From contig CAMYJU010000001.1 of assembly GCA_947258795.1 (NCBI GenBank), positions 124,001 through 188,000 on the forward strand: a stretch of DNA of 64,000 nt. The letters are read 5' to 3'. Numbering within the stretch: the stretch's first letter is position 1; every line of letters begins with the position of its first letter. The notes below the pieces were generated by a model. The model did not search any database. It saw only the letters and a program-made list of their open reading frames with translations, and had not been told where the DNA came from. Of the stretch, positions 3,940 through 15,037 are shown piece by piece. The position numbers were made by a program, and so were the translations under genes. The DNA is from an uncultured Gammaproteobacteria bacterium (GTDB lineage Bacteria; Pseudomonadota; Gammaproteobacteria; DRJJ01).

Positions 3940-4602
3940 ATGAAAACGATGCATCGTAGTCAGTTAGTAAAGTTAACAACAATGATCAGTGTAAGTGGCG
4001 CCTTGGTATTGTCCGCACAAGTCAGTTCGGCGGCGTCAAAAGGCTATTGTGGTTATGTAACATCCAGTACCGGTGAGCTGGTACGTGATAGTGATGGTCA
4101 TTGTGTACGTGGTGGATCATGGGAGCCTAAATTTGCTATTGAGGAATGTGATCCTCAATATATCAAGAAAGCAGAGCCTCAGCAGAAACCGGCGCCGAAA
4201 CCTGTCGCAAAAGTAATGCCAGAACCTGAACCGAAACCGGTTATAAAAACGATTGAACTGAAAGCAGGCGCTTTGTTTGATACCAATAGCGACAATATCA
4301 AGTCACTGGGATACCCTGAGCTGGACAAGCTTTCGGCTGAATTGAAGAAAAATACACAATATGAGAATTTTAAGGTTATCGGACATACGGATAGTCGTGG
4401 TAAAGATAATTACAATCTCGAATTGTCAAAAAAACGCGCATCTGCAGTACGTGACTATCTGGTAAGTAAAGGTATCAATGGGGACAGGATTACTGTAATT
4501 GGGATGGGTGAAAGACAACCAATTGCAGATAATCAGAGTGCAGAAGGACGAGCAAAGAATCGACGTGTAGAGATACAGGTTAAGGTGATCAAGGTAGAGT
4601 AG
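3940..4602 (+). CDS. OmpA-family peptidoglycan-binding protein
   Basis: This 220-residue exported protein has a signal peptide of about 31 residues (ending SSAAS). A short cysteine-containing segment follows (KGYCGYV...GHCVRGG), then a Pro/Lys/Glu-rich linker near residues 85-105 and an OmpA C-terminal domain (about 107-218). The domain shows the expected IGHTDSRG, LSKKRASAVRDYL, GMGERQPI and GRAKNRRVEI motifs, whose Asp and Arg bind diaminopimelate in the wall. There is no N-terminal beta barrel, so it may be a soluble or peripheral wall linker rather than a porin. The N-terminal piece resembles that seen in other short proteobacterial OmpA-like proteins. AAGGAA precedes the ATG. A 12-base inverted repeat lies downstream. 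Confidence 0.85.
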   Translation: MKTMHRSQLVKLTTMISVSGALVLSAQVSSAASKGYCGYVTSSTGELVRDSDGHCVRGGSWEPKFAIEECDPQYIKKAEPQQKPAPKPVAKVMPEPEPKPVIKTIELKAGALFDTNSDNIKSLGYPELDKLSAELKKNTQYENFKVIGHTDSRGKDNYNLELSKKRASAVRDYLVSKGINGDRITVIGMGERQPIADNQSAEGRAKNRRVEIQVKVIKVE

Positions 4603-4665
4603 GTCGGAAAAAGCATACAGCAATTAGCAATACTGTACTAATTGTCATGTATAAAATATTACTGG

Positions 4666-4703
4666 TGCCAGGCCACATAGGGCTAATGCTTTGTGGCCTG
4701 GCA
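4666..4703 (+). terminator. 12-bp perfect inverted repeat after the OmpA-family gene
   Basis: TGCCAGGCCACA (4666-4677) pairs exactly with TGTGGCCTGGCA (4692-4703) across a 14-base loop, 64 bases after the stop codon. No T-run follows directly; a run of six Ts appears only about 25 bases later. It could end the ompA-like transcript or protect its 3' end. Confidence 0.5.
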
Positions 4704-4816
4704 AAGTAGAGATGAATTTACTATTTCTGATTTTTTCTCTACTATTTAGACTCTAAACGGCAGTATTATTTTTAAAAGTGCATGATACTATCGTCAATCA
4801 GCATCCTGGTAGTCAA

Positions 4817-5218
4817 ATGAAAGGCATAATAGGGTATTTTTCAATTGTATTTTCAATATTAGCAATTTTCACTTTTGCGCTTTGGTTATTATTTGCGCTT
4901 GATGAAACTGTTACTAGTGGTGAAGCATATGGGTTGGCGATAGGAAAGACAAAAACTGAAACTTATAAATTTATCATTGAGAATGAAAAGCTCGGGTCTT
5001 TTAGTCATATATATACAGGAGAACGACATAATTATTTATCCTCTGTACCGGTTAATAAGCTTTCATTTTTCAGGCTTCGACACCATGATATTTGGCATAT
5101 AATTATCGGTCAAAAACTTTCTTCGTATAACATCTTAATTATCAAGTTTAGTAATGACAGGATAGTATCCTTACAGAGGCAAAGAAATATTAAATATCTT
5201 ATCCCGTTCGGTTGGTAG
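4817..5218 (+). CDS. small single-span membrane protein, unknown
   Basis: From ATG 4817 the product has 133 residues; an in-frame GTG at 4778 would add 13. Residues 5-30 form one strong membrane segment (IIGYFSIVFSILAIFTFALWLLFAL), followed by a polar domain of about 100 residues with scattered aromatic residues and histidines. I do not recognise the family. The codon use is very AT-rich, like its immediate surroundings. No clear ribosome-binding site marks either start, and no close neighbour suggests a role. It is long enough to be a real gene but could be a decaying one. Confidence 0.4.
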   Translation: MKGIIGYFSIVFSILAIFTFALWLLFALDETVTSGEAYGLAIGKTKTETYKFIIENEKLGSFSHIYTGERHNYLSSVPVNKLSFFRLRHHDIWHIIIGQKLSSYNILIIKFSNDRIVSLQRQRNIKYLIPFGW

Positions 5219-5794
5219 AGAATAGCAGTATTTATAATTTACAAGTTCACAAGAATATTCTTATTGTAGTTCAGTTAGCCATTCCCGCTTCTAGTAGTTT
5301 TTTCATATAAATAATTACCTGTTTTTGTCTGTAGTGAGCAGTCTCTGGCTCTAAATTATCCACTGTATTATATAAAGCAATGCAAGATATAGAGATGTTA
5401 AACGTGCAGGTAAATAGTAAATGCAAATTATCTGTTAAACGTTGTGTATGTGTATTGATTATGATTAATAAACACATAATATTGTGGATCATTGATAGTC
5501 TGAAACCATATTCAATTATCTGGATATAGTTTTTGAAAAAGTAACTATTCAATAATTAAGCAACCAGTTTAATAACAGGCTAGTGGGGAAAACTATTGCC
5601 ACTATTCAGTCAAGTAGAACAGGTGTCTAATGCTTATAAGTATATATGCTGGTAATGAGGCTGGTTTGTGTTGACTGGTTAATGTAAATGAGAAAAGTAA
5701 AAATCTTCATATCTAGTAAGAAACAATATTACTCTACGTGAACAGAACATGCGAAACATTTTGTGAAAACATAAAGAGAAGAGGGGCGAACCAA
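5219..5794. other. AT-rich intergenic region
   Basis: There is no supported gene in these 575 bases. A 93-codon minus-strand frame (5271-5552) exists, but it has no ribosome-binding site and its composition is that of AT-rich noncoding DNA. A good ribosome-binding site (GAGGGG at 5781-5786) appears only before the DUF4332 gene. Confidence 0.5.
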
Positions 5795-6196
5795 ATGAAA
5801 ATAGATGAAATAGAAGGTATCGGCGCATCTTATGCTGAAAAACTTAAATTGTCCGGCATCACGAGTGTAAAGAAAATGCTTGAAGCAGGTGCCAGTAAAA
5901 AGGGTAGAAAAGAATTGTCTAATAATTCCGGTATTAATGAAAAGCTAATCCTGAAATGGGTGAATCTTTGTGACCTATGCAGAATTAAAGGCGTTTCAAC
6001 ACAGTACTCAGAGCTACTTGAATCATCAGGCGTAGATACCGTGAATGAACTGAAAGGAAGAAACGCTAAAAACCTGTCAGAAAAGATGCTCGAGGTTAAT
6101 AAAGAGAAGAAACTCGTACGTGTTGTACCTGGATTCAAATCTATTGAAAAATGGGTTGAACAAGCCAAGACACTACCAGCTGTAATAACCTACTAG
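5795..6196 (+). CDS. DUF4332 helix-hairpin-helix protein
   Basis: The product has 133 residues from ATG 5795, which follows GAGGGG by eight bases; the open frame reaches back to 5738 but without a ribosome-binding site. IDEIEGIGASYAEKLKLSGI near the start is a helix-hairpin-helix type motif, and a second related unit follows (CRIKGVSTQYSELLESSGVDTVNELK, about residues 60-90). This duplicated pattern is that of DUF4332 proteins, whose function is not established; nucleic-acid or protein binding is inferred only from the fold. It lies 22 bases before the channel gene and probably shares its transcript. Confidence 0.7.
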   Translation: MKIDEIEGIGASYAEKLKLSGITSVKKMLEAGASKKGRKELSNNSGINEKLILKWVNLCDLCRIKGVSTQYSELLESSGVDTVNELKGRNAKNLSEKMLEVNKEKKLVRVVPGFKSIEKWVEQAKTLPAVITY

Positions 6197-6218
6197 TATA
6201 TTTATTCTGGAGAATCTC

Positions 6219-7676
6219 ATGGATTTATCATCGATTTTAAGTTCCCTACAGTCTTCTTTAGGAGACTTGTTACCGAAGGTATTAGCTGCAATCAGTATTC
6301 TTGTTGTTGGCTGGATTGTGGCAGTTATTGTTCGCGCTGTTATCAGAAAGTCTTTGGCATATTTTAATATCAATACTCGAATCAAAGAAAAAAGTGGCAG
6401 TGATATAAACCTCGAGTCTGGTGTAGCTAGTGGTGTTTTCTATATTATTATGCTATTGGTGCTGGTTGCATTTTTCAGCGCATTAGACTTGCAGGTTGTT
6501 TCTGAGCCTTTGCAAGACCTGACTACCCAGTTTTTTGATTATGTGCCAAAGCTCGTAGCAGGCGGAGCACTATTACTAGTGACCTGGATTATTGCGACTT
6601 TAATTAAGATGGTTTCGACAAAGGCATTATCAGCAACATCGCTGGATGAAAAAATCACATCTGAAGCCGGAATGAGACCTGTAAGTCAAAGCTTGGGAAA
6701 TATTTTATACTGGCTTGTATTCCTGATCTTCTTGCCTGCAATATTAAGTGCTTTTGAAATGCAAGGACTGCTAAAGCCGGTCGAGTCAATGGTTAATAAA
6801 ATACTGGATATGTTGCCGAATATATTTGGTGCTGCAATTATTGGTTTTGTCGGCTGGATGGTGGCAAAAATATTGCGAGACCTGGTATCAAACTTAATGA
6901 GTGCATTGGGAGCTGACCATATTGGGGAAAAGGCCGGATTGAGTGAATCACTTAGTCTCTCCAGATTGACAGGAGTTATAGTGTTTGTACTTATTTTCGT
7001 TCCTGTATTAATTTCAGCCCTTAATACTCTACAGATCGAGGCTATTTCGGGGCCTGCAACTGAAATGCTTGCAGCTGTAATGAAGGCAATCCCAAATATT
7101 TTTGCTGCTGTAGCTATTCTTGCAGTGTCATTTTTTGTTGCCCGTTTCATATCTGGAATTTTAGTTACATTACTGGATGGGACAGGCTATAACACTTTAC
7201 CTGAAAAATTGGGTTTCAGGAATGTAGACACGAATAGAAAGACACCGGCTGAAATGACAGGCAAGGTTATACTGTTCTTTATCATGCTTTTCGCAACAGT
7301 AGAAGCAGCAGGTAAACTCGAATTTCATCAGGTATCTTCGATTATCAGTACATTTATCCAGTTCGGTGGTCAGGTTCTATTGGGTGTTGTGATACTGGGT
7401 ATCGGTTTATGGCTTGCAAATCTCGTCAGATCAGCACTACTCGCAGTAAGTGGAGATAATGCATCGGCAATTGCTGGTATTACTCATATATCGATACTTG
7501 TCCTGGTTGCGGCAATGGGACTGAGAGCGATGGGTATAGCAGACGACATAGTGAATATTGCATTCAGTATGATGCTTGGAGCTATCGCTGTCGCAATCGC
7601 TTTGTCATTTGGTCTGGGAGGCCGTGAAGCAGCAGGATTACAGATGGAATACTGGTTGAAAAAATTACGTAAATAA
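6219..7676 (+). CDS. CmpX-like mechanosensitive channel family protein (TM_helix repeats)
   Basis: This is a very hydrophobic protein of 485 residues with about ten membrane spans arranged as repeated units. Each unit has a helix pair with the pattern PKLVAGGALLLVTWIIA or PNIFGAAIIGFVGWMVAKI, and units recur near residues 15, 108, 198, 290 and 385. The repeats match the 'conserved TM helix' family that includes Pseudomonas CmpX, usually annotated as mechanosensitive channels. A large soluble MscS C-terminal domain is missing. It probably sits in the inner membrane and responds to envelope tension, but transport has not been shown for most members. It is preceded by CTGGAG at 6208-6213. It groups with the DUF4332 gene before it and the lipoprotein after it. 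Confidence 0.8.
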   Translation: MDLSSILSSLQSSLGDLLPKVLAAISILVVGWIVAVIVRAVIRKSLAYFNINTRIKEKSGSDINLESGVASGVFYIIMLLVLVAFFSALDLQVVSEPLQDLTTQFFDYVPKLVAGGALLLVTWIIATLIKMVSTKALSATSLDEKITSEAGMRPVSQSLGNILYWLVFLIFLPAILSAFEMQGLLKPVESMVNKILDMLPNIFGAAIIGFVGWMVAKILRDLVSNLMSALGADHIGEKAGLSESLSLSRLTGVIVFVLIFVPVLISALNTLQIEAISGPATEMLAAVMKAIPNIFAAVAILAVSFFVARFISGILVTLLDGTGYNTLPEKLGFRNVDTNRKTPAEMTGKVILFFIMLFATVEAAGKLEFHQVSSIISTFIQFGGQVLLGVVILGIGLWLANLVRSALLAVSGDNASAIAGITHISILVLVAAMGLRAMGIADDIVNIAFSMMLGAIAVAIALSFGLGGREAAGLQMEYWLKKLRK

Positions 7677-7684
7677 ACTTATAT

Positions 7685-7713
7685 CAGCCTGCCCAGATAA
7701 TTAGGGCAGGCTG
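7685..7713 (+). terminator. 10-bp perfect inverted repeat after the channel gene
   Basis: CAGCCTGCCC (7685-7694) pairs exactly with GGGCAGGCTG (7704-7713) around a nine-base loop, starting eight bases after the stop codon. No U-tract follows, so it may be a partial terminator or an RNA-stabilising hairpin between the channel and lipoprotein genes. Confidence 0.5.
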
Positions 7714-7751
7714 CAAAATCGTCAAAATCATTATCAAAAAAGGAACTAATT

Positions 7752-8084
7752 ATGAAAAAGTCAATTGCAATAATGTTATTCGGTCTGGTTTTATCAGGAT
7801 GCTCACAGTCTGATGAACCTACATTGGAAGATCAAAAGAAAAAAGTAATATCAAATATAGAGGATAAAGCACAGGTAATACAGGACAAAAGTGATCCAAG
7901 TAGCACTAGCGCTGAAACAGAAACAAAAACAAAAACAAAAGAGATTATCGATAATGTTAAGGAAGATGCCAATGAGTTACTTGATAAAGGAGTTAAAAGT
8001 GAAACAGGAGAGAAAGTAATGGACAAGGCAAAGGAAATACAGGAATCAGCAGAATCCAAGGCGGCGGACTTAATGGGAAAGTAA
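7752..8084 (+). CDS. small lipoprotein, unknown
   Basis: The 110-residue product has a lipoprotein signal (MKKSIAIMLFGLVLSGC, lipobox LSGC with Cys17). The mature part is almost wholly helical and highly charged, with regularly spaced Lys, Glu and Asp (for example TETKTKTKEIIDNVKEDANELL), and low in aromatic residues. It resembles small envelope-stress or YtxH/late-embryogenesis-like helical proteins in composition only. AAGGAAC precedes the ATG by about seven bases. It lies between the channel and the ComEA-like gene, suggesting a shared envelope role, which is inference. Confidence 0.7.
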   Translation: MKKSIAIMLFGLVLSGCSQSDEPTLEDQKKKVISNIEDKAQVIQDKSDPSSTSAETETKTKTKEIIDNVKEDANELLDKGVKSETGEKVMDKAKEIQESAESKAADLMGK

Positions 8085-8113
8085 ATCAATATAATATAAG
8101 ATGAGGTTTGACT

Positions 8114-8668
8114 ATGTTTGTATATAAAAAAATATCACAGCTTATAGATATGAGCAATATACGGAAAGTGACTGTAGCGATATTTATCACTGTTTTACTC
8201 CAGTCTATTTCATATCCGGTATTAGCCGAACTTATCAATATAAATAAAGCAGATGTAGTAACACTCAGCAAGCATCTCAAGGGGGTGGGAGATGTTAAAG
8301 CACAATCTATTGTTGAATACCGAAGGCAATATGGTCCATTTAAAAACGTTAATGAACTTGTATATGTACCGGGAATCGGCGATGGTATCCTGAATGATAA
8401 TAGGTCAAATCTTTCTACTAAAAAGGGAATTTTTAGAGCTCAAGAGAGAAGCAGTAAACAATCAGCCTTGAACGACTCAAGCAAATCATCACCAATTCAA
8501 CATAAAGGAAGAAATTTTTCGGAAAAACGCAATACTGATTTCAAGTCTGATAAAACCGTCTCAAACGATACATCAAGAAAACAAAAAGGAAATAAACATT
8601 CGAAAAAGGACAAGAAGTCCGGAAAGGGCAAGGGTGTCAAGCAGTCGAAAAAGGACAAGAAGTCCTGA
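8114..8668 (+). CDS. ComEA-like helix-hairpin-helix protein with lysine-rich tail
   Basis: From ATG 8114 (GATGAGG ends eight bases before it) the product has 184 residues; TTG 8108 is an unlikely start. An N-terminal membrane or signal segment (VAIFITVLLQSISYPVLA) is followed by a ComEA helix-hairpin-helix (LININKADVVTLSKHLKGVGDVKAQSIVEYR..., about 40-90) with the two GVG/GIG hairpins. In ComEA proteins this domain binds incoming DNA in the periplasm. The unusual part is the last 90 residues: Ser/Lys-rich, ending in two copies of SKKDKKS separated by GKGKGVKQ. The encoding DNA carries the matching direct repeat (8599-8620 and 8645-8666). No other competence genes are nearby. Confidence 0.75.
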   Translation: MFVYKKISQLIDMSNIRKVTVAIFITVLLQSISYPVLAELININKADVVTLSKHLKGVGDVKAQSIVEYRRQYGPFKNVNELVYVPGIGDGILNDNRSNLSTKKGIFRAQERSSKQSALNDSSKSSPIQHKGRNFSEKRNTDFKSDKTVSNDTSRKQKGNKHSKKDKKSGKGKGVKQSKKDKKS

Positions 8669-9081
8669 ACGGCTAAAACAGACAAGCAATTGATTCACAT
8701 GGCTTTTACAACTTAAGCTATCAATTGACATATGAAATGTCCTATCAAATCGATAGGGCACTCTTATCGGGCATTGCGAAACAAATTATAGACGGAATCA
8801 ATTCAGATATTATAACTATTTGATTATACATGCATATATTATGTTGCCGTGGTTACGGGTATATATGCGAGTATTGATTACTTTTGAGAGTGAAACAATA
8901 AACAAGGTCGCGACAGTTCAGGGCTTTGTTGTGCAGCAACCATAAATAACTTGTCAATTCCAGAATATTTAAATGATAAGCATATGTTTTACAAATAAAA
9001 TTAGTCATTTCATGGGTGTAATTGAAGAAGTTTTTTATTATTATGTTCAAGACATCAATCGATACTGTCCGGAGACGGCTT
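8669..9081. other. intergenic region upstream of the response regulator
   Basis: AT-rich, with no supported gene. A hairpin-forming sequence (TGTCCTATC 8738-8746 with GATAGGGCA 8752-8760, one G-U pair) lies about 75 bases after the ComEA-like stop and could end that transcript. The end of the region carries the regulator's ribosome-binding site (GGAGACGG, 9071-9078). Confidence 0.45.
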
Positions 9082-9774
9082 ATGCGCGTAGCTTTACTTG
9101 AAGATGAACCAGCGCAAGCAGAAATGGTTTTAATGAGCCTGAAATCGGCTGGACATGAATGTGAGCATTTTTCTAGCGGGCGAAAGTTCATTGAGAACGT
9201 GATTGCCGATAATTTTGATTTATTGATTTTGGACTGGAATATACCTGATATGGACGGGACAGAAGCGCTTACGGCTATCAGAAATGAGCTGGATTGGAAT
9301 ATACCAGTACTGTTTACGACAAGTCGTACACGTGAAGAGGATATTGTATACGCATTGGATCATGGGGCAGATGACTATATGGTAAAGCCCCTGAAGAAAA
9401 ATGAGCTCGTAGCAAGAATCAATTCGCTACTACGTAGAGCACTTCCTCAAGATAATAATTCTGATAAATATGCATATCCGCCATATATCTTTTGCAAGGA
9501 AGACAGGTCTGTTAGAAAAAATGGCAAGGATATAGAATTAACGAATAAAGAATTTGATGTGGCACTACTACTGTTTCAAAACCGGGGTAAATTAGTATCC
9601 CGAAAATATTTATTAGAAAAAATATGGGGATATAAAACCAAGCTGAATACGCGCACAGTAGATACGCATATTAGTAATATCAGAAAAAAGCTTGGAATTA
9701 GCCCTGTAGACGGCTGGTTGTTAAGTTCTGTTTATCAGCATGGTTATCGGCTAAATGAATTAGACGAAACTTGA
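9082..9774 (+). CDS. OmpR/PhoB-family response regulator
   Basis: The product has 230 residues from ATG 9082, supported by GGAG at 9071-9074; an upstream TTG at 9022 would add 20 residues without a ribosome-binding site. The receiver domain (about 1-115) has the acidic pair at residues 8-9, the phospho-acceptor Asp51 in LLILDWNIPD, and Lys102 in YMVKPL. The C-terminal winged helix (about 135-228) has the usual ELTNKEFDVALLLF and TVDTHISNIRKKL segments. It should bind DNA when phosphorylated. The next two genes in the same direction are a LysM-FecR protein and a CHASE2 histidine kinase, which is its probable partner. Confidence 0.88.
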   Translation: MRVALLEDEPAQAEMVLMSLKSAGHECEHFSSGRKFIENVIADNFDLLILDWNIPDMDGTEALTAIRNELDWNIPVLFTTSRTREEDIVYALDHGADDYMVKPLKKNELVARINSLLRRALPQDNNSDKYAYPPYIFCKEDRSVRKNGKDIELTNKEFDVALLLFQNRGKLVSRKYLLEKIWGYKTKLNTRTVDTHISNIRKKLGISPVDGWLLSSVYQHGYRLNELDET

Positions 9775-9902
9775 AGCAAAGCAGTGCGTCATCTGGCCAG
9801 ATTTACAGATATAATCAAATATGTATCGGGAGATCCTTTAATTCATGTTATATTAAAAGCAAAACAAAACAATAAATTACAGACAGACTAGATCTTTATA
9901 CC

Positions 9903-11477
9903 ATGAAAATAAGACAGATCTATATATTAATTTTAATATTGATTCCGATAAATTGTCATGCCAGTGACTGGAGCTATACGTTCAGGCCAGGTGACAGCTT
10001 ATGGGATCTTAGCAATAAGTATTTGATTAGTACTGAATACTATACGGAACTTCAAGCGCTTAATAAAATATCGGATCCAACAAAGATTTTACCAGGAACC
10101 ATTATTAAGATCCCAATTAAATGGCTTAAAAAACAGCCTAGCTCCGCATTGATAACTGATACGTATGGAGCGGTAACCATTATACGATCTTCAGAAAACA
10201 AAATTATAATGAACAGTTTGCCTGATAATCGTATTTATGCAGGAGACCGGATAGTAACAGGTAAAGACAGCAGTGCAACACTGGTATTAGCTGATCAGTC
10301 GCGTTTAATAATTTACGCTGAGTCTGAAATTATAATGGATTCTATCAGTCAGTATGGAGATACAGGTATGGTAGATACCACACTTCGTCTGCCGGCGGGA
10401 CGTATAGATAACCATGTAAATCCAAACAAAAGCCCAGGATCAAGATACAAAATTAATACGCCTGCAGCTGTAGCGGCCGTCAGAGGTACAGAATTTCGCA
10501 TGAGTGCGGACTCGCAGAGAAATATTAGTCGAAGTGAGGTGCTGACTGGCTTAATTGGCGTACTAGCGCAGGATAATGAAACTGAGGTTCCTGAGGGTTA
10601 TGGGAATGTTACCAAAATTGGCGAACAACCTCAAAAGCCAAGAGAATTACTCAAGCCTCCTGTGACTACCTCCACACGTACGAACATTATTAAATTTCCT
10701 GCTGAACTGAATTGGTCAGTACTGGATGGTGCCAAGGTTTACCGCACACAAATACTACCTACCAATAAACAAGACCGTATTATATATGACAGATTAAATG
10801 ACAAAGCATCACTAAGATTAAACGAGTTGAAGGATGGGCGATATATTCTCAGAATAAGGGGTATCGATGATATTGGCTTGGAGGGTTACAACGCTAATCA
10901 CGAGTTTGTTGTACAGACAATACCTGTAATTACTGAATTAATGACTTCTGCCAGCGGTTCGGCTTTAAATAATGCGACACCTGAATTCAGGTGGAAAAAG
11001 GATGAGAGGGCAGATAGATATCACTTTCAGATAGCATATGACCAAAATTTTACAAAAATTATTGAAGAGAAAAAAGATTTAAAAACGAATTATCTGACAC
11101 CGGAGAATGTACTTCCGGATCAGGTGTTGTACTGGCGCGTTGCCGGAATAAATACTGAAAATGTCAGAGGTCGATTTTCACCGGTATCAAAAATTGTCAT
11201 CAAAACAAGGACGGAGCCGGTATTGGTATATCCAGCCTTTGTTGATTATTTTTATATCTACTATAGATGGCGGCCCATAACAAATGCAGCATCGTATGTA
11301 ATACAGGTATCCCCGGTACATCCTTCGAATAAAATATATTGGGAATACACTGTAAAACAACCTTTTATTAGAATGATGCGGCCAGCATCCGGTGTTTACT
11401 ACTACCGTGTTGGTGTGAGCAAGCGTAAGGAGACTTATAGCGAATGGAAACGCTTAAATATTCCATACTTGCACTAA
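9903..11477 (+). CDS. periplasmic LysM-FecR domain protein
   Basis: This 524-residue exported protein has a signal peptide ending CHASDW (about residue 21). A LysM domain (about 24-75, YTFRPGDSLWDLSNKYL... to GTIIKIP) suits peptidoglycan binding. A FecR domain follows (about 85-210), with the family marker INTPAAVAAVRGTEFR. The rest contains two or three fibronectin-like beta repeats, recognisable by ELNWSVLDGAKVYRTQI, PEFRWKKDERADRYHFQI and YYRWRPITNAASYVIQV. FecR domains normally relay signals across the periplasm. Here there is no TonB receptor or ECF sigma factor, and the gene lies 26 bases before a CHASE2 kinase, so it is probably a periplasmic partner of that kinase. This role is inference. 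Confidence 0.82.
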   Translation: MKIRQIYILILILIPINCHASDWSYTFRPGDSLWDLSNKYLISTEYYTELQALNKISDPTKILPGTIIKIPIKWLKKQPSSALITDTYGAVTIIRSSENKIIMNSLPDNRIYAGDRIVTGKDSSATLVLADQSRLIIYAESEIIMDSISQYGDTGMVDTTLRLPAGRIDNHVNPNKSPGSRYKINTPAAVAAVRGTEFRMSADSQRNISRSEVLTGLIGVLAQDNETEVPEGYGNVTKIGEQPQKPRELLKPPVTTSTRTNIIKFPAELNWSVLDGAKVYRTQILPTNKQDRIIYDRLNDKASLRLNELKDGRYILRIRGIDDIGLEGYNANHEFVVQTIPVITELMTSASGSALNNATPEFRWKKDERADRYHFQIAYDQNFTKIIEEKKDLKTNYLTPENVLPDQVLYWRVAGINTENVRGRFSPVSKIVIKTRTEPVLVYPAFVDYFYIYYRWRPITNAASYVIQVSPVHPSNKIYWEYTVKQPFIRMMRPASGVYYYRVGVSKRKETYSEWKRLNIPYLH

Positions 11478-11503
11478 ATACGGTGGTGTGATCCAGATTT
11501 GCC

Positions 11504-14143
11504 ATGAATAAAAAGATCAAATATCAGCAAATCAGCGGGAGACTGGAGCAAGTACTTTTTTGGGTGTTAATTATCTTTTTTACGCTTCTTTTGATTCATG
11601 GCGACTGGCTATCCAGATGGGACCTTCTTATATATGATGCTCAGATAAAGCTATGGCATGACCCACCACCATCTGAAATTATCATCATCGCAATCGATGA
11701 ATCAAGCATCAAAAAGCTGGGCCGATGGCCATGGCCGCGTAGTATTCATGCTCAGTTGTTAAATAAACTAACAACAGAGGAGGCTGGTGCGATTGGTATG
11801 GATATAATCCTTTCGGAGCCTTCGCGTAATAGCGTGCAGGATAATGAGTTGGCAGATGCAATTAAGAGGAATGGAAAAGTGGTCCTGCCCGTGCTCGCAG
11901 AGCAGACCAGGGTGCAAGGCCAGCTAGTAGAGACTTTGCCTTTATCGTTATTTGCGGAAGTAGCGGCTGCCATGGGCCATGTTCATGTTGAACTGGATAA
12001 AGATGGTATAGCACGAAGTGTCTTTCTCCTGGAAGGTCTTGGCACACCGCATTGGCCTAGTTTTGCCCTTTCAGTTTTGAATGTAGCAATGCCTGATTTA
12101 AGAATTGATTTGCCAGGTACGCAAAGCATAGTTAAGTCAGAACCAAGCCCATATGTATGGTCAAGAAATTATAAAATGTTAATACCCTTTGCAGGACCCC
12201 CGGGGCATTTTAATACATTGTCGTATGCCAATGCCTTGGGAGGTAATCACTTACCCGGATTATTTAAGAATAAAATCGTGCTCATAGGGGCAACTGCTAC
12301 CGGATTGGGCGATGCTTTGCCTACACCTGTATCAGCTGAAGCGCACTCTATGTCGGGTGTGGAAATTAATGCCAATATTTTAAACGCTCTGATAAAGAAT
12401 GTCGATATTCGTAAAATATCAGTTTCGGCACAAATGACTATTGCCAGCATTTTAATTCTCCTTATGGCTTTCTTTTTCACACAATTATCACCAAGGTGGA
12501 ATTTGATCATTACGCTGACGATGATTATTTTATCGTTGTTATTATCGGTGCTATTACTCAAATACTTTTATTTATGGTATGCGCCTTCTGCGATATTGCT
12601 GGCGATGATTGTTGCCTATCCATTATGGAGTTGGAGGAGGCTTGAAAATGCAATGAGGTTTCTGGATCAGGAGTTGGCCGTATTGCACACGGAGGAGCAA
12701 AGCGCACCAAAAAGCCAGGCGTTAGAACTGAGATCCGTAATGGAATATTTTAACAAACTGCTGCCTATATCTGGATGGGCGATTTTTGGCAAAAATGGAC
12801 AAATATGTTACTCCGATAAGGATTATCCAAGCCGGGTTCCGGATATAAAGGTACCGGACAGTCAATGGTTAAATTATAAAGACGATTATTGGCTAGATAT
12901 GTCCCATGATACTGGGCCGGGACTGGTTGCAATACGATGGACACATGACAAGGCGCCTACTCAACAGGAAAGAGCCTTGCTGGATGATCTACTTGAAAGA
13001 CACAAATCACATATCAATCAAACCAGGATGAATAGTGTGGACCTGGTTGAAAATCGTATTGCCCAGGTTAGGCTGGCTGCGGAGCGTATGCGCGCCCTGC
13101 GCAGGTTTATCTCGGAGGCAATATCGCAAATGGGAGATGGCGTGCTGGTGGTTGGGCCAATTGGCGATATTATTTTATCAAATGAAAATGCGGCATCCTA
13201 TCTTGGATATCAATCAGTTGACGAACTTAATCGTAATAGCCTCCTGCCTGTTTTAGACAGGCTTCACAAATATTCTACCGTTACGTGGGAATCAGTGCTT
13301 TATGATGTACTTTTAAAGCATCAAACAGTACAGTCGGAAGCAATTCATAACGGGTATGATTTACTTGTGCAATTTGCTCCGTTGGACCGACATAACAGAG
13401 AACTCGGCGGTATGATTGTAAATTTAACCGACATTACAGATCTGAAAACAAGTGAACGAAGACGGGGGGAGTTATTGGGTTTTTTATCTCACGATTTGAG
13501 AGCGCCACTTGTATCATTAATGGCTTTGCTTGAAATCAGCAGAACTGACACTTCTATCTCTTCCTTGGCCTCATTGCTTGATAGAATGGAGGCTTATGCT
13601 CAGAATACACTTAATCTTGCAGATCAGTTTCTTCAGCTTTCTCGTGCAGAGAGTGGTGAGAGTATTAATTTCCAGGAATGTGATCTGAATACTATCTCAT
13701 TAAATGCGTTAGAACAGGTCTGGGCGCAAGCAAGAAGAAAAAATATCGAATTGAAATATAAAGAATGCTCAGAAGAAGCATGGATATATGCTGATCCGGA
13801 TTTGATTGAACGTACTATTGTTAATTTGCTAACGAATGCGGTCAAATACAGTAATTCTGCAACAATTATTTCGATCACGATATATGACAGCAACAAGTGC
13901 TACAATTGCTGTGTTTGCGATCAGGGATCAGGAATCTCAGAAGAAGATGTACCGCATTTGTTCGATCGCTTTTATCGCGTTAAGCAAACAAGCAAAATGC
14001 AGGTAAAAGGAGCAGGTCTTGGACTTGCCTTTGTTAAAACTGTAATTGAGCGTCATGCCGGTAATGTAGATGTAAAGAGCAAGCCTGGTAAGGGGTCAAC
14101 ATTCTGTATATCACTTCCCAAAAAGGGGAACGGGCCAACATGA
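11504..14143 (+). CDS. CHASE2-PAS sensor histidine kinase
   Basis: This 879-residue inner-membrane kinase has one N-terminal span (about 15-35) and a periplasmic CHASE2 domain (about 35-300, with IIIIAIDESSIKKLGRWPWPR and the family's GHVHVELDKDGIAR). Three spans follow (about 308-378), then a PAS-like region (MGDGVLVVGPIGDIILSNENAASYLGY) and a HisKA domain (FLSHDLRAPL, His near 663). The HATPase has its N box (NLLTNAVKYS), G1 box (DQGSGI) and G2 box (GAGLGLAF). Catalytic residues look intact. CHASE2 senses an unknown periplasmic signal; the LysM-FecR gene just upstream and the regulator before that make a likely three-part pathway. A terminator is not evident after it. Confidence 0.87.
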   Translation: MNKKIKYQQISGRLEQVLFWVLIIFFTLLLIHGDWLSRWDLLIYDAQIKLWHDPPPSEIIIIAIDESSIKKLGRWPWPRSIHAQLLNKLTTEEAGAIGMDIILSEPSRNSVQDNELADAIKRNGKVVLPVLAEQTRVQGQLVETLPLSLFAEVAAAMGHVHVELDKDGIARSVFLLEGLGTPHWPSFALSVLNVAMPDLRIDLPGTQSIVKSEPSPYVWSRNYKMLIPFAGPPGHFNTLSYANALGGNHLPGLFKNKIVLIGATATGLGDALPTPVSAEAHSMSGVEINANILNALIKNVDIRKISVSAQMTIASILILLMAFFFTQLSPRWNLIITLTMIILSLLLSVLLLKYFYLWYAPSAILLAMIVAYPLWSWRRLENAMRFLDQELAVLHTEEQSAPKSQALELRSVMEYFNKLLPISGWAIFGKNGQICYSDKDYPSRVPDIKVPDSQWLNYKDDYWLDMSHDTGPGLVAIRWTHDKAPTQQERALLDDLLERHKSHINQTRMNSVDLVENRIAQVRLAAERMRALRRFISEAISQMGDGVLVVGPIGDIILSNENAASYLGYQSVDELNRNSLLPVLDRLHKYSTVTWESVLYDVLLKHQTVQSEAIHNGYDLLVQFAPLDRHNRELGGMIVNLTDITDLKTSERRRGELLGFLSHDLRAPLVSLMALLEISRTDTSISSLASLLDRMEAYAQNTLNLADQFLQLSRAESGESINFQECDLNTISLNALEQVWAQARRKNIELKYKECSEEAWIYADPDLIERTIVNLLTNAVKYSNSATIISITIYDSNKCYNCCVCDQGSGISEEDVPHLFDRFYRVKQTSKMQVKGAGLGLAFVKTVIERHAGNVDVKSKPGKGSTFCISLPKKGNGPT

Positions 14144-14471: not shown

Positions 14472-14594
14472 ATGCTTAATACCGGCCAGAATTTTGAACA
14501 TCCGGCTGTCCCGGCAGGCTCAGCTCTGAGGGAGCATGTCCTGTACAGACTGAGCAGGAAACGCTGGGAGATGTTTCGGATCCAGGGGTCATGA
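14472..14594 (+). CDS. short ORF translationally coupled to the DUF442 gene
   Basis: The 40-codon ORF starts at ATG 14472 with GGAGAG (14459-14464) seven bases upstream, and its TGA (14592-14594) overlaps the ATG of the next gene (ATGA at 14591-14594). An in-frame ATG at 14457 would add five residues. The product is mildly basic near its end (LYRLSRKRWEMFR) and has no signal or membrane segment. I recognise no family. Placement, ribosome-binding site and stop-start overlap argue for real translation, either as a functional peptide or as a leader that couples translation. Confidence 0.45.
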   Translation: MLNTGQNFEHPAVPAGSALREHVLYRLSRKRWEMFRIQGS

Positions 14595-15037
14595 TCGAGG
14601 ATATCCTGAATTATGTACGAGTATCAGATCGTATTGCTACATCCGGTCAACCGACAGTAGATCAATTCAGGCGCATAGTCGGAGCCGGTTTTGAAGTAGT
14701 TGTCAACCTGGCTATGCCGGATTCGGTTAATGCGATTGCTGATGAGAAAGATATCGTTGAATCATGTAATATGGAGTATGTTCATATTCCGGTACCGTTC
14801 GATTCACCTGGTGTCGAACATCTAAAGATATTTTTTGAAGTAATGAGCGAATATTCCAAGCGGAGGCTATGGGTACATTGTGCGTTGAATTACCGGGTAT
14901 CTGCATTTATTTATCAGTACTATCGCCTGATAAAAGGGGAGGCCCCGGAGCAGGCGAGAAAACACATGTTTTCGCACTGGGAGCCGAACCCGGTATGGCG
15001 ACGGTTTATGGTAATATCGTTTAAGGAAATCGAATAA
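14591..15037 (+). CDS. DUF442-type protein tyrosine phosphatase-like protein
   Basis: The 148-residue product matches the beta-lactamase-hydrolase-like phosphatase group (DUF442): VRVSDRIATSGQPT at the start, GFEVVVNLAMPDS in the middle and WVHCALNYRVSAF as the active-site loop. Canonical tyrosine phosphatases have C-x5-R in this loop; here the spacing is Cys-Ala-Leu-Asn-Tyr-Arg, C-x4-R. This form is usual in this subgroup as far as I recall and may not be catalytic. Related domains are fused to sulfur-handling hydrolases in other bacteria. It overlaps the short ORF before it and precedes a SaoD/DsrE gene by 32 bases. Confidence 0.75.
   Translation: MIEDILNYVRVSDRIATSGQPTVDQFRRIVGAGFEVVVNLAMPDSVNAIADEKDIVESCNMEYVHIPVPFDSPGVEHLKIFFEVMSEYSKRRLWVHCALNYRVSAFIYQYYRLIKGEAPEQARKHMFSHWEPNPVWRRFMVISFKEIE

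Follow-up and report, generated by a model that had tools for sequence, protein, structure and literature searches.

The gene trio at positions 9,082 to 14,143

The window analysed here is a stretch of 64,000 nucleotides from an uncultured Gammaproteobacteria bacterium (positions 124,001 to 188,000 of contig CAMYJU010000001.1, assembly GCA_947258795.1). On its + strand, the list of open reading frames (ORFs) and Pfam searches identified three genes at positions 9082-14143. They encode an OmpR/PhoB-type response regulator, a LysM-FecR protein with fibronectin-III-like (FnIII) repeats and a CHASE2-PAS histidine kinase (Table 1). An earlier reading of the letters alone, hereafter the original prediction, had placed these three genes here, and they proved to be real with exact coordinates. 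The regulator and LysM-FecR genes are separated by 128 bp, the LysM-FecR and kinase genes by 26 bp. A sequence scan, a weak kind of evidence, found no terminator-like site and no + strand promoter-like site in these gaps. An Rfam search gave no match in the window.

The regulator starts with an ATG at 9082, within a longer ORF that opens with a TTG at 9022. Scanned from 9022, it matched Response_reg (E value 1.9e-23) and Trans_reg_C (4.1e-21) of Pfam. Its best NCBIfam rows were MtrA, PhoB and CreB, all far under their cut-offs. D51, picked by eye from the sequence, is probably the phosphate-accepting aspartate. In the kinase, a hydropathy scan gave peaks at residues 14-32, 307-325 and 334-352, on either side of the CHASE2 domain. 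Its structural model (mean predicted local distance difference test score, pLDDT, 82.9; predicted TM score, pTM, 0.54) contains PAS-like stretches, though Pfam made no PAS call at an E value of 1e-3. Residues 364-874 of the kinase align to the VicK-like kinase 4i5s with a Z score of 22.5, and H663 is invariant across 38 aligned kinases. The phospho-accepting histidine, the ATP-binding core and a receiver with a winged helix-turn-helix, which define a two-component system, are thus all present in the kinase and the regulator. For the CHASE2 part, no solved relative was found by sequence (E value up to 1e-3), and the matches from structure comparison were filled by kinase cores.

The AlphaFold2 model of the LysM-FecR protein, built with 60 sequences, reached a mean pLDDT of 92.8 and a pTM of 0.80 and contains a LysM domain, a FecR domain and three FnIII-like repeats. 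Model residues 112-279 match the periplasmic signalling domain of PupR (6ovk_R, Z 16.7, root-mean-square deviation 2.1 over 129 residues). Residues 249-524 match FnIII arrays with Z scores of about 10-12, and Foldseek agrees; these repeats are visible in the predicted structure and were not called by Pfam at an E value of 1e-3. It is the LysM domain alone which suggests, from the sequence, that this protein may read the cell wall. Six of the 60 LysM-FecR proteins carry a C-terminal hydrophobic, membrane-like segment, so that their C-terminus would sit at the inner membrane. The FecR part also gave weak NCBIfam matches to leptospiral Lsa33 and LipL45, far under cut-off.

FecR domains are known from cell-surface signalling, and the original prediction had noted that an ECF sigma factor and a TonB receptor are absent here. 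Neither was found by Pfam in the eight proteins scanned around the trio (ECF sigma factors were not searched for genome-wide), so that the statement holds at this locus. Concerning TonB receptors it does not extend further, since the genome's other CHASE2 gene adjoins a FecR protein with tetratricopeptide repeats (TPRs) and a TonB-type barrel. In a Pfam profile search of the whole genome, DUF4880, the N-terminal anti-sigma domain of FecR, had no match. The STN domain had one, on a different contig from the trio.

Table 1. Features of the trio and of its upstream neighbours in the window
Feature	Position	Strand	Basis
OmpR/PhoB-type response regulator, 230 aa	9082..9774	+	ORF, Pfam
Secreted LysM-FecR-FnIII protein, 524 aa	9903..11477	+	ORF, Pfam, AlphaFold2 model
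Signal peptide, probable cleavage after ...NCHA	9903..9962	+	by eye
LysM domain, aa 25-71	9975..10115	+	Pfam PF01476, E 2.9e-11
FecR domain, aa 115-217	10245..10553	+	Pfam PF04773, E 1.5e-15
Three fibronectin-III-like repeats, ~aa 263-520	10689..11462	+	model, Foldseek
CHASE2-PAS histidine kinase, 879 aa	11504..14143	+	ORF, Pfam, model
CHASE2 domain, aa 23-320	11570..12463	+	Pfam PF05226, E 6.7e-58
PAS-like domain, ~aa 530-640	13091..13423	+	model secondary structure, alignment to 4i5s; no Pfam call
HisKA dimerisation domain, H663 codon 13490-13492	13463..13657	+	Pfam, E 1.3e-7
HATPase_c domain	13793..14125	+	Pfam, E 1.3e-25
OmpA-family protein, link to trio only suggested	3940..4602	+	Pfam OmpA, E 7e-26
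DUF4332 protein, link to trio only suggested	5738..6196	+	Pfam, E 1e-39
Mechanosensitive-channel-type membrane protein, link to trio only suggested	6219..7676	+	NCBIfam NF033912, 342 bits (cut-off 100); Pfam PF05552

CHASE2 as the neighbour of LysM-FecR genes

Two short patterns were used to scan 84,980 species genomes. The scan yielded 90 confirmed LysM-FecR relatives, and the analysis used the best 80 of them, so that close kin are favoured; domain profiles for these 80 loci were built from seeds of this LysM-FecR family. Both domains were present in 71 of the 80 loci, and in 66 of these at least 150 bp of sequence remained past the FecR stop. In 64 of the 66, the next gene encodes CHASE2 and has the same orientation, the CHASE2 match beginning a median of 53.5 bp after the FecR stop. 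The original prediction had considered that the link would be weak if the LysM-FecR protein occurred alone or with unrelated partners; within this family the link is strong. The exceptions are L154 and L155, which bear the labels Spirochaetota and Turneriella; in their genomes FecR has 8 and 12 matches and CHASE2 has 0 and 1, respectively, none of them near each other. Among the nine loci without LysM, CHASE2 was on the locus in three, and in two of these its ORF also encodes a cyclase domain.

The output of the CHASE2 partner was readable in 60 of the 64 cases, 38 being histidine kinases and the other 22 GGDEF or GGDEF-EAL proteins. A regulator gene lies upstream in 37 of the 38 kinase-type loci (the remaining one, L108, starts 166 bp from a contig end) whereas none of the 22 GGDEF-type loci has one, which suggests that regulator and kinase belong together. 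Because CHASE2 is kept while the output is swapped, these data suggest that the constant partner of the LysM-FecR protein is the CHASE2 domain, whatever its output, rather than the kinase as such. The idea of a wall-sensing accessory that feeds a histidine kinase was right in kind but too narrow in its output, 22 of the 60 readable partners being GGDEF(/EAL) proteins without upstream regulator. With a quick method and weak deep branches, the GGDEF label required three changes on the FecR tree and one on the CHASE2-domain tree (66 loci). The GGDEF-type loci are mainly labelled as relatives of Rhodocyclales or Comamonadaceae. In single cases, Pfam revealed a PAS-GGDEF-EAL protein (L068), a PAS-GGDEF-EAL-receiver protein (L072) and a hybrid kinase-receiver (L067).

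Conservation within the kinases was measured as mean column entropy in the 38 sequences. Values of 1.73 were obtained both for the periplasmic CHASE2 part and for DHp, as compared to 2.38 and 2.90 for the PAS regions. CHASE2 is thus conserved as strongly as DHp and more than PAS, which fits a domain with one fixed protein partner.

The association was then followed beyond LysM in a class sample of 114 genomes, in which the FecR and CHASE2 matches include fragments of single genes and contig ends are uncorrected. CHASE2 was found in 65 genomes and FecR in 48; both occurred in 43, CHASE2 only in 22, FecR only in 5 and neither in 44 (Fisher P 9e-10). Among 95 FecR matches, 40 were within 10 kb of a CHASE2 match and 26 within 2 kb, against 1.6 and 0.4, respectively, expected by random placement. 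Some of the 80 loci share a contig with this sample: the L066 protein is that of L106, and L069/L126 and L073/L086 have contigs of matching length.

In the genome of the window, the three FecR and two CHASE2 matches all fall in two clusters, and every FecR lies within 10 kb of a CHASE2. The second cluster, on contig C32 (L006), consists of a CHASE2 adenylate cyclase gene followed by the gene for the FecR-TPR-TonB-type-barrel protein, with an additional FecR ORF on the side of the contig end. The same layout of cyclase and FecR-TPR-barrel protein was found in eight more loci (L075-L081 and L085), the barrel gene being split in two ORFs in L075 and L085. In L082, the FecR-TPR-barrel protein has a CHASE2 histidine kinase as its neighbour. 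In nine genomes reached through unusual relatives, with labels including Armatimonadetes, Elusimicrobia, Dehalococcoidales, Chloroflexi, Geminicoccaceae and Spirochaetota, 11 of 18 CHASE2 matches had a FecR match no more than 5 kb away, and 12 of 39 FecR matches were near a CHASE2; as the genomes had been selected because they contain a relative, the counts are an illustration and not a rate.

The nearest named relatives of the window trio are labelled uncultured Gammaproteobacteria. Contigs with the trio or a LysM-FecR gene also occur in bins labelled Halobacteria archaeon (L098), Polarisedimenticolaceae of the Acidobacteriota (L092) and Manganitrophaceae of the Nitrospirota (L097); L098 and L092 look like gammaproteobacterial copies and may be misbinned. 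No FecR-CHASE2 fusion in one protein was seen, the candidate, a 1422-residue ORF in L132, having its FecR in another frame.

Known systems and competing readings

The window trio is of the type of BiofilmReg, a system already published, here from another lineage. BiofilmReg of Burkholderia contaminans is described as an operon of a regulator, a LysM-FecR protein and a CHASE2-PAS kinase (Voronina et al. 2016, PMC5192318). A plasposon in its regulator gene abolishes biofilm formation. The authors already note that the LysM-FecR gene sits between those of the regulator and the kinase, and they put its protein in the periplasm. A PA4035-like gene plus kinase in Pseudomonas likewise belongs to the closest known systems. 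Three-gene forms are given for Achromobacter, Bordetella and Ralstonia, and exact orthologues only for Burkholderiales (PMC5192318). The window trio has the same gene order on one strand, and its middle protein has LysM, FecR and, as judged by eye, a signal peptide. It differs by its first gap of 128 bp, the corresponding start in Burkholderia lying inside the regulator gene (PMC5192318). It also lacks the DUF4136 gene that is the fourth in Burkholderia: the gene after the trio, at 14591-15037, is PTP-NADK-like. As the published three-gene form is likewise without DUF4136, this does not exclude membership. Two further differences concern the sets of relatives. The trio was seen here in many records labelled Gammaproteobacteria, as compared to the Burkholderiales-only orthologues, and the GGDEF(/EAL) output found here for LysM-FecR partners is not reported in the sections of PMC5192318 consulted. 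What the comparison adds to the published trio is a rule by which LysM-FecR accompanies CHASE2 irrespective of the output, together with the following link to NsrA-CyaK.

A tblastn search of plasmids with the genome's FecR-TPR-barrel protein gave a match on Sinorhizobium pSymB at the gene annotated nsrA. The Sinorhizobium genes nsrA and cyaK overlap; NsrA carries FecR (E value 2e-15) and TPRs, and CyaK carries CHASE2 (2e-37) and a cyclase domain. Perception of signal 1 in S. meliloti needs the outer-membrane receptor NsrA and its cognate cyclase CyaK (PMC7529298). Genetically, one FecR-CHASE2 pair thus behaves as receptor and transducer. As in the window pair, a FecR envelope protein adjoins a CHASE2 enzyme of the inner membrane. 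The two pairs differ in that NsrA is an outer-membrane TPR-barrel protein without LysM and CyaK is a cyclase, the window protein having LysM and FnIII and no TPR or barrel. By analogy, the window LysM-FecR protein, although not an NsrA, may work like one. The L006 pair of the same genome has the NsrA-CyaK layout in the opposite gene order, the cyclase gene preceding that of the FecR protein. Related clusters are reported from Campylobacterota, with a CHASE2 adenylate cyclase, a FecR outer-membrane protein, a TPR protein and a phosphodiesterase (PMC9239204). FecR and CHASE2 genes stand together there as in the window, with a cyclase output and an outer-membrane location of the FecR protein as differences. 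A Myxococcus operon encodes a FecR lipoprotein, a LysM-FnIII protein and the phosphodiesterase PmxA (PMC8844925), and the MtxA gene is followed by a CHASE2 cyclase gene (PMC4439547).

From these data we favour, with fair confidence, the view that the trio is a three-gene envelope-sensing two-component system of BiofilmReg type in which a wall-anchored LysM-FecR protein switches the CHASE2 kinase. The LysM-FecR protein would be exported and its LysM domain would hold peptidoglycan. The FecR domain and the fibronectin repeats could then reach the periplasmic CHASE2 domain of the inner-membrane kinase. Changes in the state of the wall or envelope, for which wall or osmotic strain is our guess, would alter the FecR-CHASE2 contact and switch the kinase, which would in turn hand phosphate to the OmpR-type regulator.

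Several observations weigh against this view. The linkage evidence for FecR and CHASE2 is guilt by association throughout. In 39 kinase-type loci, FecR distances correlated with those of CHASE2 at 0.73 and with those of the kinase core at 0.78, or at 0.52 and 0.58 given the regulator. CHASE2 is not singled out over the kinase core, and the correlation was dropped as a proof of FecR-CHASE2 contact. In S. meliloti, smc02177, a FecR gene whose number adjoins that of cyaD1 (SMc02176), is unneeded for ex planta signal perception and needed for infection control (PMC5498481). In the class sample, 55 of 95 FecR matches have no CHASE2 within 10 kb, and all 20 in two Spirochaetota-labelled genomes are likewise without CHASE2; spirochaetes apparently make use of FecR domains in its absence. 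Conversely, 84 of 128 CHASE2 matches of the class sample lack a FecR within 10 kb. Twenty such CHASE2 regions were re-examined with only ORFs of at least 150 residues listed. One, L226, was actually paired and its FecR was recovered, and none of the ORFs of that size in the other 19 was FecR-like. Among the unpaired regions, L217 encodes a CHASE2-GGDEF-EAL protein. In view of these regions CHASE2 does not in general require FecR, and only part of the CHASE2 proteins have FecR as their partner.

Part of this evidence would also fit a LysM-FecR protein that is an output or a house-keeping part of the system, either a co-transcribed envelope protein controlled by the sensor or a factor that places or stabilises CHASE2. 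Thus, smc02177 is reported to be activated by the cAMP pathway while being dispensable for perception (PMC5498481), and FecR distances follow those of the kinase protein as a whole, with no preference for CHASE2. However, the LysM-FecR gene follows CHASE2 through the swap from a phosphorelay to a cyclic di-GMP (c-di-GMP) enzyme, where target genes should differ, and perception is reported to require NsrA, the FecR protein beside CyaK (PMC7529298). We consider an output or house-keeping role unlikely.

Less likely still, and in our opinion improbable, is that sensing is done by CHASE2 alone, through direct binding of a small periplasmic ligand, with the FecR protein doing no more than tune it. 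The 19 unpaired regions could be read in this way, as could a CyaD1 variant without CHASE2 that makes cAMP constitutively (PMC5498481). An adjacency kept in 64 of 66 loci and the unusual conservation of the CHASE2 part argue in the opposite direction. Finally, a classical anti-sigma regulator of cell-surface signalling that lies here by chance is a hardly credible reading of the FecR protein: the fold of its FecR domain is PupR-like, but the anti-sigma part is missing, DUF4880 having no match in the genome, no sigma factor was found among the eight scanned locus proteins, and, compared to PupR, a signal peptide and LysM stand in front in place of the cytoplasmic N-terminus and fibronectin repeats behind in place of the last part.

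Beyond the trio, a wider proposal can be put forward tentatively, at somewhat less than even chances. FecR envelope proteins, anchored by LysM or built as TPR-barrels, might act as the dedicated periplasmic switch of CHASE2 receptors with any output (phosphorelay, c-di-GMP or cAMP) in many phyla. This would be a second kind of transenvelope signalling by FecR besides anti-sigma control, with CHASE2 in this subset being a docking domain for FecR and not a sensor of small molecules. What CHASE2 domains sense is stated to be unknown in PMC5192318 and PMC10581220; if FecR is the partner of CHASE2, this old question becomes testable. BiofilmReg, NsrA-CyaK and the Campylobacterota cyclase clusters, so far described apart from each other, would then come together as a single module in which anchor and output can be exchanged.

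The re-examined regions without FecR also showed arrangements of their own. In L210-L216, two CHASE2 genes, one for a cyclase and one for a second CHASE2 protein, lie a few kb apart with PP2C-like and FHA-like genes between them. Pfam identified a CHASE2 Ser/Thr kinase in L210, L212 and L214, and PP2C and FHA in L212. Lone CHASE2 cyclases occur besides these paired CHASE2 genes.

Neighbouring genes and regulator promoters

Upstream of the trio and on the same strand, the window contains at 3940-8668 the three neighbours of Table 1 as well as a small lipoprotein-looking protein and a ComEA-like HHH protein. Across 46 kinase-type loci, OmpA-family genes neighbour the trio in 12, DUF481 in 10, MscS in 8 and DUF4332 in 6. 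Any of these four or the window's channel-type protein was present in 21 of the 46. By comparison, none of the 22 GGDEF-type loci and none of 12 further loci with FecR and CHASE2 had one, and of 58 short loci with CHASE2 or FecR a single one did. Kinase-type loci provided the seeds of the neighbour profiles, so that a match to each seed is built in, and the controls belong to different lineages, some of them being considerably shorter. That MscS, OmpA and DUF481 recur as neighbours points tentatively to osmotic or envelope/wall stress as the signal. The phenotype published for BiofilmReg is biofilm formation (PMC5192318). DUF481 and MscS genes stand beside the trio in two arrangements (L088, L101, L108, L119, L139, L141, L142 and others), possibly as an osmotic-stress regulon.

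Expectation maximisation on 32 dereplicated regulator promoters gave a direct repeat near TTACAATNNNTTAACAAT with a score of 47.6, as compared to 25.6-36.1 in five shuffled sets. The repeat, which resembles an operator of the OmpR family, is found in the regulator promoters of L098, L090, L103, L112, L124, L125, L133 and L156 and often lies about 105-140 bp upstream of the regulator. In the genomes of nine relatives it was not enriched, with 32 matches against 34 for a reversed control pattern, and 13 promoters of neighbour genes held at best two suggestive sites. The promoter of the window's own regulator is without the repeat, the lone match in the window, at 3964 with two mismatches, being at chance level. 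On these grounds we claim no shared operator or regulon.

Further copies of the repeat were seen at two other places. In L092, a second, perfect copy lies right behind the kinase gene on the opposite strand (11312-11327). In L185, two overlapping copies with three half-sites (1491-1516) lie in a long gap between ORFs in which Rfam had no match; judged by eye, the flanking ORFs resemble the end of polA, a methyltransferase gene and engB.

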